A stretch of 64,000 bases of DNA, taken from Terriglobia bacterium. Its GTDB lineage: Bacteria > Acidobacteriota > Terriglobia > Terriglobales > Acidobacteriaceae. Numbering within the stretch: position 1 is the stretch's first letter; every line of letters starts with the position of its first letter. The notes under the pieces were generated by a model. It was not told where the DNA came from, made no database searches, and saw only the letters and a program-made list of their open reading frames with translations. Position numbers and translations under genes: made by a program. Of this stretch, positions 278 to 3,364 are shown one piece after another. The DNA is taken from positions 1-64,000 of the forward strand of contig JAJPJE010000022.1 of assembly GCA_021324365.1 (NCBI GenBank), in the 5' to 3' direction.

Positions 278-640
278 ATGAAGCGACTGCTGATCATATT
301 AGCTGGATGCGTGCTCGGCCTGGGAGTTGCGATTGCGCAGGACGTGAGCAAAGACGCTAAGGACGTCGGCCACGACATGGACAAGGGCGCAAAGGATGTG
401 GGCAAGGATGCCAAAAGAGACGTGCACAAGGTGGGCCACGCGACCAAGAAGCTAGCGCACAAAACCGGTGACCAAAGCAAGAAAGCTGCTGATAAGACAG
501 CTGATGCCACTAAAGACACGGCACATCATACAAAAGACGCGGCCCACAAGACTGGACATGAAACGAAGAAAGTCGTAAAGAAGGCTGGCGAGAAGATGGA
601 CGAAGGTGCGAAGAAAACAGAAGAAGAAGTTAAGAAATAG
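278..640 (+). CDS. Secreted Lys/Ala-rich LEA-like helical protein
   Basis: This gene encodes 120 residues. The start is supported by GGAGG about 9 bases upstream. Residues 1-21 form a classical signal peptide ending in AIAQ, so the mature protein should be exported. The rest is very hydrophilic and built of loose repeats such as KDAKDVG, KKAADKTADATKD and KDAAHKTGHETKK. There are no Cys or Trp residues and many Lys, Ala, Asp and His. The periodicity resembles the 11-residue repeats of group-3 LEA and apolipoprotein-like helices, which protect membranes or proteins during drying. That role is inferred from composition only. The gene is monocistronic and followed by a hairpin. Confidence 0.75.
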   Translation: MKRLLIILAGCVLGLGVAIAQDVSKDAKDVGHDMDKGAKDVGKDAKRDVHKVGHATKKLAHKTGDQSKKAADKTADATKDTAHHTKDAAHKTGHETKKVVKKAGEKMDEGAKKTEEEVKK

Positions 641-715: not shown

Positions 716-1786
716 CTATCCGGCCACCTCTGCCCTGGCTCCCATGCCATAGCGTGCCAGCGCCATATCCACGATCTCTCCGATCAGTTGTGTGTACGTG
801 CGTCCCGACTTTTTTGCCGCCATCGCGAATTCCTGTGTGCTAGCGAGCCATGGATTCGGATTCGCTTCGATAACGTACACTTCACCTTTCTCAGTGAGGC
901 GCATGTCGATGCGGCCGTAATCGCGCAACTTGACCGCACGATACGCGGCCAAAGCGACATGCTGGACTTTCTCGATGGTCGCATCGTCCATACCTTCAAC
1001 AGGCGCGGACTTTGTTAGCTTGTAGGCTTCGGTGTCTTTTTCGAACTTTACGTCGAGGCTCGCAATCTTCGGAGTTCCCTTCGGAAGCTTCGAGAGATCC
1101 AACTCAATGAGCGGCAGCGCTTCCGTATTCTCGTAGCTTCCGAGAATGCCGCCATAGATCTCTCGACCCTCGATGTACTCTTCGATCAAGGCGGGCGAAT
1201 CGAATTCGTCCTGGATGTATTCGATTCGCTCCATCAACTCTTTCACGCTGCCAACAACGGCATCGGCGCCAATGCCGATCGAACCGTCTTCCCAGACCGG
1301 CTTTACGATCAGCGGAAACTTTATGTCATGCGCGTGATCGAGCTTGCCACGGTATGAGGTCGCGAAGTACGGCGTCTGGATTCCGTAAAAAGCGAACATT
1401 TTCTTGGCTATGGCCTTATCTTGCGCCAGGAAGTGCCCATGCGGTCCGCTGCCCGTGTAAGGCATCCCGACCAGATCCATGTAGGCGGCAACGTTCATCT
1501 CCTTCGTGTCATCGCCACCGTAAGACTCAATCAGGTTGAACACGAGATCGGCGCCGCACTTCGGCAACGCGGACAGCGATTGCATGCGACCGTCGAGTAC
1601 CTGGTAGAAAGGCTCGTATCCGAGCTTCTGTAACGCTTCGAAAATCTCTTCGCGGTCGTGCTTCTCTTTCTTTTTTTTGCGACGCTTTTTGCTGCGGCGT
1701 TTGGGTTTTTCGGGTTCCGGTTCGACGGCGGGCTGTTCTTCCTCCCAGACGTCGTACAGAACCGCGACCTTCAGTTTGTCACTCAT
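716..1786 (-). CDS. ATP-grasp ligase, D-alanine-D-alanine ligase family
   Basis: This gene encodes 356 residues, with GGAG upstream of the ATG. The protein has the ATP-grasp layout: an N-terminal Rossmann-like part, a central ATP-binding region with PLIVKPVWEDGSIGIG (about residues 165-180), and the C-terminal metal-binding motif YGRIDMR...VIEANPNPWL. The last motif closely matches Ddl-type enzymes, which join two amino acids with ATP. An unusual insertion at residues 28-45 is almost entirely Arg and Lys and replaces part of the normal N-terminal loop. The gene lies 43 bases downstream of a metallopeptidase gene on the same strand and probably shares its transcript. That context suggests a specialised peptide or amino-acid ligase rather than the housekeeping Ddl. 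The substrate is unknown. Confidence 0.85.
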   Translation of the reverse strand: MSDKLKVAVLYDVWEEEQPAVEPEPEKPKRRSKKRRKKKKEKHDREEIFEALQKLGYEPFYQVLDGRMQSLSALPKCGADLVFNLIESYGGDDTKEMNVAAYMDLVGMPYTGSGPHGHFLAQDKAIAKKMFAFYGIQTPYFATSYRGKLDHAHDIKFPLIVKPVWEDGSIGIGADAVVGSVKELMERIEYIQDEFDSPALIEEYIEGREIYGGILGSYENTEALPLIELDLSKLPKGTPKIASLDVKFEKDTEAYKLTKSAPVEGMDDATIEKVQHVALAAYRAVKLRDYGRIDMRLTEKGEVYVIEANPNPWLASTQEFAMAAKKSGRTYTQLIGEIVDMALARYGMGARAEVAG

Positions 1787-1829
1787 CTCAGGGCTCCGGC
1801 CTTACGGCCACCTGCAAGTACAATCAATC

Positions 1830-2843
1830 TCACGGCTGAACAAACTTACCTCGGGTCAGATAATTCATTGCCAGCGTTGTTGCGTACGCGGTCAACTCCG
1901 TTAGCTGATCAGCCTGCTTCGCAACATCGACTCGTAAGTCCAATTCCGCCACCTTGCTCTGGATGGACTCGACTAGCCTCTTGATCAGCGGACGCGGAAC
2001 GCCAGTCCAGTAGGTGACCTTGTCTACAAGCGCCTTGCGATGCTCACGAATCAGGTCGACGGCAGGGCGCACTCCCTTGCGCCGGCGCTTCGACGCATTA
2101 AACAGGTCGGTCAGATCCGTATTGAGCGGAAGATCGGCAATCAGCGCGCCTTCATCACCTGAGCGCTGATAAAACTCAGCAACGGTGGCATCCATCTCCT
2201 CGACGGTAATGTCGGTTCGACCTCGCTGCCTTATCGGGTCGACGTCGCCAAACTTCCGTGCGACGCGATCAACGTACTTCAGCTTGGTTATCGCATGCCA
2301 TCCCCGGTATCTTTCCCGCCAACGGGAACGGGGCGTCAGCCAGACGGCGAATGTCTCGGCGAAATCTTCATCGGGATGCTTTTGTGCATACCAGCCTGCG
2401 ATATGGCGTACATAGCTGCGCGAAAACGGTACCGGACGATACGCGTCCCGATATGGGCGACGAAACGAACCGAACAGCTCGCGCCATTCCGGTGTCTTGA
2501 ATAGCTCGTAAGCGTAATTGAACGCGTGCCCTGCCTCGTGACGCATGTACATCATGATTTCGCGCGCGTCTTCCAGGTCATTCATCTCGCGCTCGAGCTT
2601 TGCCAACTGCGGATCGGCAAGATAGAACGGAATACCAATAACCGGTTCGCCTGAGGGACAACCCCACTCGTCCGACAAGTAACAGCCCGGGCGAAACTTC
2701 TTCACCCCCTTCTTTTCCAGTTCCCGGTAGAGCTGCTGGACGAAGCGCTCCAGTGGGGATCCGTCCAGACGAAGGCCAAGCTCCCGGATTGGTTTGCTGA
2801 GCAGCTCCTGCGCTTCCGCTGCCGGTTTCTCAAAAGTCTGCAT
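1830..2843 (-). CDS. Putative zinc metallopeptidase (HExxH)
   Basis: The protein has 337 residues if it starts at the ATG at 2843. A GTG at 2900 with AAGGG upstream would add 19 residues, so the start is uncertain. The zinc motif is HEAGH in the context MMYMRHEAGHAFNYAYELF, followed about 75 residues later by DEDFAETFAVWL. That later segment probably supplies the third (Glu) ligand, as in gluzincin-like peptidases. There is no signal peptide, so a cytoplasmic location is likely. A basic RRRRKG stretch occurs in the C-terminal half. It is the first gene of a two-gene unit with the ATP-grasp ligase. The substrate is unknown, and activity is inferred from the motif only. Confidence 0.75.
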   Translation of the reverse strand: MQTFEKPAAEAQELLSKPIRELGLRLDGSPLERFVQQLYRELEKKGVKKFRPGCYLSDEWGCPSGEPVIGIPFYLADPQLAKLEREMNDLEDAREIMMYMRHEAGHAFNYAYELFKTPEWRELFGSFRRPYRDAYRPVPFSRSYVRHIAGWYAQKHPDEDFAETFAVWLTPRSRWRERYRGWHAITKLKYVDRVARKFGDVDPIRQRGRTDITVEEMDATVAEFYQRSGDEGALIADLPLNTDLTDLFNASKRRRKGVRPAVDLIREHRKALVDKVTYWTGVPRPLIKRLVESIQSKVAELDLRVDVAKQADQLTELTAYATTLAMNYLTRGKFVQP

Positions 2844-3163
2844 GTAGTGAAGAGAAAGTAACCTGCTTTCGGACTTGTCCAGTAGATCACCGCAGAACAC
2901 GTACCCTTAACCAAAGCAGCAAGGGGCGCTAGTCTTTGCACAACCATTTCTCGATGGAAATAGTGTAAGTCAAAGAAATAAAACCGTTTATTTTGCCATT
3001 TACTGGATGTTGGTCGCAGGTTGTGATTCGCTATCGGGGGAGTCATCTGGTAAGATAATGGTGCGTTACATACGAAGTGGTCTCCAGCAAGTCTCTTCTG
3101 AAGTCACCTGCCTGCAGCACCCTCCAGTATCACGCGACATCAACTAAAGGATTTTGCAACACA
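2844..3163. other. Intergenic region between divergent peptidase and csp genes
   Basis: This 320-base region holds no convincing gene. It must contain the promoters of the leftward peptidase/ligase pair and of the rightward cold-shock gene. The roughly 100 bases before the csp ATG probably include a 5' leader. I could not identify a confident -35/-10 pair. Confidence 0.4.
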
Positions 3164-3364
3164 ATGGAAAATGGAACAGTGAAGTGGTTCAACGACTCTA
3201 AAGGCTATGGATTCATCACCCGCCAGAACGGCGAGGATGTGTTCGTTCATTACTCGGCCATCCAATCCCAGGGATTCCGCAGCCTGCAAGAGGGTCAACC
3301 CGTGCAGTTCAACGTGGTAAAGGGCGCGAAAGGCTGGCAGGCCGAAAACGTTCAAGTACTCTAG
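3164..3364 (+). CDS. Cold-shock protein, CspA family
   Basis: This gene encodes 66 residues, the normal length of a single cold-shock domain protein. The sequence [18 protein letters not shown] starts the beta-barrel, with the RNP1-like motif KGYGFI and the RNP2-like motif VFVHY. Both bind single-stranded RNA or DNA through aromatic residues. The protein acts in the cytoplasm as an RNA chaperone. The upstream in-frame extension lacks family similarity, so the ATG at 3164 is preferred. The gene is monocistronic and ends at a strong terminator. Confidence 0.95.

Follow-up and report, generated by a model that had tools for sequence, protein, structure and literature searches.

Across the Acidobacteriota, a gene for a predicted cytosolic zincin metallopeptidase (PEP) is retained together with one for a predicted Ddl-like ATP-grasp amide ligase (LIG), forming what we predict to be a phylum-wide amide-forming and amide-cleaving unit. 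The conservation and linkage of the two genes, the phylogeny of the ligase outside Ddl, and the conserved ATP-grasp and HExxH sites are established; since the genes have been kept together throughout the phylum, their products probably act on one common target molecule. The reading we favour, with a probability of roughly 45%, is a self-contained cytosolic amide-ligation and amide-cleavage module in which PEP would act on the LIG product, as in RimK/RimB. ATP-grasp genes of the LIG kind are easily annotated as D-alanine-D-alanine ligases.

Gene layout in the source genome

Within the window, the 64,000-nucleotide stretch of Terriglobia bacterium DNA analysed here, both genes lie on the minus strand, with PEP (337 aa, positions 1830..2843; assigned from its PF15887 match and invariant site) at the 5' end of the transcriptional order and LIG (356 aa, 716..1786; assigned from its PF07478 match, tree position and residues) at the 3' end. 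The open reading frame coordinates place a spacer of 43 bases (1787..1829, minus strand) between them, confirming both frames of the HExxH peptidase gene and following Ddl-like gene reported by the first-pass annotation. Its span of 716-2900 holds at the LIG end, whilst the PEP start must be moved from the in-frame GTG at 2900 to the ATG at 2843, which is the most likely start codon because homologues begin there. No signal sequence or membrane-spanning stretch was seen in either protein (the highest 19-residue mean hydropathy values being 0.57 and 0.88), in agreement with the cytoplasmic location first suggested for the peptidase. As also described initially, no dcw genes occur near the pair. 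The genome's housekeeping Ddl is encoded on a separate contig (C79).

Two other genes flank the pair on the plus strand. A cold-shock domain protein (window 3146-3364; PF00313, 3e-30) is divergent from PEP-LIG, and a protein at window 278-640 carries an N-terminal hydrophobic stretch and repeats rich in Lys, His and Asp (KDVGHD, KKAADKTADATKD), similar to LEA-type stress proteins.

Conservation and distribution of the pair

PEP and LIG were found side by side in 109 of 111 fetched Terriglobales loci (95 distinct PEP proteins; different searches returned some of the loci twice), which excludes chance adjacency and extends the pairing far beyond the source genome. The two exceptions (L012 and L042) are one identical 4,749-base contig that ends 235 bases past PEP. 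Among 150 genomes of the family, 52 had PEP and 50 had LIG; the two genome sets coincide except for G095 (contig end) and G052 (weak match, 8e-4). Across 347 Acidobacteriota genomes, PEP was present in 89 and LIG in 126, with LIG in every one of the 89 PEP genomes (Fisher p = 3e-53, a value that ignores kinship). LIG occurred with no PEP in a further 37 of these genomes, being of the pair clade in G265 and G407, and no case of PEP without LIG was observed among the 347.

For 65 of 98 PEP matches, LIG lay no more than 400 bases away, and 63 of these 65 were arranged head-to-tail; additional convergent neighbours were recovered when loci were read individually (L137, L138, L152, L206 and L207). 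The head-to-tail arrangement often involves a 4-base overlap, with this stop/start overlap replacing the spacer in the distant pairs L122, L131, L132, L133, L141, L144 and L148, whilst the convergent arrangement characterizes a separate clade and appears again in L200. Given this variation in gene order and orientation, the link between the genes has survived rearrangement. In one family, PEP stands alone with LIG elsewhere in the same genome. In 83 larger loci, PEP (77 loci) and LIG (74 loci) were the neighbours that recurred, against 12 loci for the next most frequent family, so no third operon gene recurs and the flanks differ while the pair is retained. PEP and LIG distances were correlated (r = 0.95, 37 pairs), as shared species history alone could produce.

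Related loci were distributed through Terriglobales and other Acidobacteriota. Record titles for three (L090, L096 and L114) name other phyla, likely reflecting mis-labelled bins; L090 groups within Terriglobales in the tree. PF15887 was absent from all 14 control genomes and no plasmid-borne PEP was found. A literature search that left out the 2009 amidoligase survey of Iyer and others, the likeliest place for an earlier mention, returned no text on the pair.

Several features of individual loci were also recorded. An IMG/VR contig (L189) carries both genes, probably in the host flank of a provirus. A glutamine synthetase-like gene is encoded on the opposite strand two to three genes downstream of PEP in 8 of 83 loci (L093 and seven others). 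In L017, L051, L063, L070 and L076, where the PEP start codon is often GTG, a repeated GTGCTA(C/G) stretch approximately 15-20 bases ahead of the start suggests a promoter yielding a very short or absent leader.

A predicted zincin peptidase with an invariant site

PEP matched Peptidase_Mx (PF15887) at 5e-9, with 36.4 bits against a gathering cut-off of 27, over part of the profile (positions 77-164 of 236), and three distant PEPs also passed the cut-off. Its zinc motif reads R-H102-E-A-G-H106, and the putative zinc and catalytic residues are H102, E103, H106 and E163. Both the HExGH and YAQxHPxEDFAE motifs are kept in 42 PEP homologues from across the phylum: R101, H102, E103, G105, H106, Y152, H156, E159, D160 and E163 are invariant (42/42), and F161 and A162 occur in 41 of 42.

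Searches with the predicted PEP model (pLDDT 80.5) returned no significant Foldseek match, and a PDB profile search gave only two weak, unrelated matches. With VIA-align, the best structural matches to model residues 1-204 were the catalytic domain of lethal factor (Z up to 9.7, with Foldseek E-values that were not significant), PPEP proteases (Z up to 8.1, PPEP-3) and 4l7a, a putative zinc-binding metallo-peptidase of Bacteroides (Z 5.5), in alignments spanning about 150-160 residues at 10-15% sequence identity. The modelled likeness to lethal factor and PPEP appears to concern the fold only, comprising a zincin core, HExxH and a glutamate approximately 60 residues further on. Unlike those proteins, PEP has neither a secretion signal nor toxin domains, and where lethal factor and PPEP have a tyrosine, PEP has H156, seven residues ahead of E163. 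An apparent PEP fusion in G162 (a 1588-aa frame, L197) was rejected, as its N-terminal 1,200 residues have no Pfam match and look like a GC-rich shadow frame.

A ligase outside the housekeeping Ddl clade

LIG matched PF07478 at 3e-28 and scored 121.4 bits against the curated Ddl model TIGR01205, about half the cut-off of 245.65. A tree that included 31 Ddl sequences (DdlA and DdlB of E. coli and 29 from the phylum) set LIG and related ligases apart from Ddl as a clade with 100/100 support and a long inner branch, and a second tree with more loci recovered the same separation. Neither clustering within housekeeping Ddl nor confinement of the pair to this genome, the two outcomes named beforehand as counting against the initial proposal, was observed.

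Alignment to DdlB, whose residue roles in ATP/Mg and D-Ala binding are taken to be those of the family, indicated that the ATP/Mg residues are kept in the window LIG: K124, K162, E202, E209 and K247 correspond to DdlB K97, K144, E180, E187 and K215, and R292, D294, E307 and N309 to R255, D257, E270 and N272, with S151 and G153 likewise retained. Seven other DdlB residues (E15, H63, Y210, Y216, G276, S281 and L282) are lost, with E15 replaced by E17 in an unrelated loop, H63 by E87, Y216 by F248, G276 by W313 and S281 by Q318. The D-Ala-binding residues E15, H63, Y216, G276 and S281 are retained across the Ddl set, except for gaps in one row. The S281/L282 stretch aligns without gaps to Q318-E319 in the window LIG, and this site is acidic (x-E or E-D) in both main pair clades. 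One convergent LIG clade has no acidic pair here and has K144 changed to H, so LIGs need not all share one reaction. The predicted LIG model was poor (pLDDT 55) and was left out of the fold search; inferences about the pocket thus rest on the alignment. On tree and residues together, the identity of LIG as a housekeeping Ddl is ruled out at sequence level.

The first-pass annotation had also drawn attention to an Arg/Lys block. This segment exists, at LIG residues 27-42. It belongs to a linker (approximately residues 13-44; 1655..1750, minus strand) that is first E/P-rich and then K/R-rich and lies in the beta1-alpha1 loop joining strand 1 to helix 1, a position taken in Ddl by the GGxSxExxVS substrate loop. 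All 88 Terriglobales LIGs measured had a stretch of this composition, 21-42 residues long, at the same position, with a median of 10 K/R in the 21 residues ahead of DREE. The modelling then proposed gave pLDDT below 50 at residues 15-41, in a model of low confidence overall, and the block was not present in several more distant PEP-LIG clades. Being variable in length, predicted at low confidence and missing from distant pairs, it does not have the importance first given to it: the basic block is a lineage trait rather than a mark of the PEP-LIG system, and perhaps serves as a nucleic-acid or protein contact.

Relatives in KamA cassettes

Some Acidobacteriota encode two tandem LIG-like genes with a GNAT and a lysine-2,3-aminomutase-like KamA (L145:4768-8415, L157:5933-9612 and L202; the first two were identified with Pfam and NCBIfam, and L202 solely from the order and length of its genes). 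Outside the pairs, these ligases rank among the closest relatives of LIG, and differ from the pair in lacking an adjacent PEP, their partners being the aminomutase and acetyltransferase. On a Thioflavicoccus plasmid (L118), one related ligase adjoins KamA. The cassettes may make an acetylated beta-amino-acid peptide and, as the nearest relatives with readable chemistry, hint that the wider LIG family deals with unusual amino acids. The NGR234 symbiotic plasmid (L116:7890-10972) has a related ATP-grasp gene with a CapA family gene after it.

Mechanism and alternative explanations

The pairing of a bond-forming enzyme with a likely bond-cleaving one, as originally proposed, is supported. We infer the catalysis, the shared substrate, the direction of action and the acceptor type. 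LIG would use ATP to activate a carboxylate as an acyl-phosphate, which would then be joined to an amine. As LIG has acidic residues where Ddl binds the D-Ala2 carboxylate, the alignment weakly suggests an acceptor that is cationic or amine-bearing instead of a free alpha-amino acid, for example a polyamine, the side chain of lysine or a position inside a peptide. PEP would then remove or trim the added group, as an eraser to the LIG writer, or otherwise process the product; that PEP was never found without LIG, and LIG sometimes without PEP, points to the LIG product as the substrate of PEP. Against this proposal, the neighbours name no substrate, with no recurrent third gene in the 83 loci and no conserved small precursor ORF, and in one family the two genes are unlinked. 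In its most specific form, the module would be an undescribed reversible protein- or metabolite-tagging system, with a Ddl-derived writer, a zincin eraser of lethal-factor/PPEP fold and a lysine-like or internal amine as acceptor. We regard this version as somewhat unlikely; if the pair is a true writer/eraser, its reversible modification would be a new one, in a soil phylum that is abundant and little studied.

The order of action could instead be reversed, with PEP cleaving a protein or peptide so as to bare an end or free a fragment that LIG then extends or caps, making the pair a maturation system. PEP is indeed the first gene, often translationally coupled to LIG, and its modelled fold matches sequence-specific endopeptidases; pair-clade LIG nevertheless persists without PEP in two genomes while the converse was not seen, and no linked precursor gene was found, leaving this an unlikely explanation. 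It is doubtful, too, that the product of LIG is a small peptide or amino-acid amide serving as a store, osmolyte or redox compound, with PEP as its dedicated hydrolase in the manner of cyanophycin synthetase and cyanophycinase. Some ATP-grasp ligases make dipeptides, and the KamA-GNAT-LIG-LIG cassettes of related LIGs resemble small-molecule synthesis, but known zincins of the lethal-factor/PPEP fold cleave proteins or longer peptides, acidic residues stand where a free second amino acid would have its carboxylate bound, and neither a transporter nor a biosynthetic partner is linked to the pair. The Ddl-family domain of LIG could also denote an extra D-Ala-D-Ala ligase for peptidoglycan, with PEP as a cell-wall peptidase. 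That role is highly improbable for a ligase that falls outside the Ddl clade (100/100) with its D-Ala-binding residues replaced, in a genome with a true Ddl elsewhere, when both proteins appear cytosolic and wall genes are not linked.

Two further candidates were rejected. Neither protein matched a PADLOC anti-phage defence model at E-values up to 0.01, and no small ORF recurred beside the pair as expected of a graspetide RiPP or other precursor-linked cluster, the only matches being gene ends and intergenic overlaps.

Comparison with known systems

LIG and Ddl share the ATP-grasp fold family and the ATP/Mg catalytic residues, and differ in forming separate clades and in the replacement in LIG of the residues that bind D-Ala1 and D-Ala2. 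For the pair as a whole, the nearest working analogy is RimK/RimB, in which a co-transcribed, cytosolic ATP-grasp glutamate ligase and retropepsin-like protease oppose one another, RimB trimming the residues that RimK added to the ribosomal protein RpsF (PMC12239564). PEP-LIG resembles this system as a gene pair for a cytosolic ATP-grasp ligase and a peptidase, whereas its ligase is of Ddl rather than RimK type, its peptidase is an HExxH zincin rather than an aspartic protease, and it has no third Rim gene. The module would operate in the fashion of RimK/RimB, using an unrelated peptidase.
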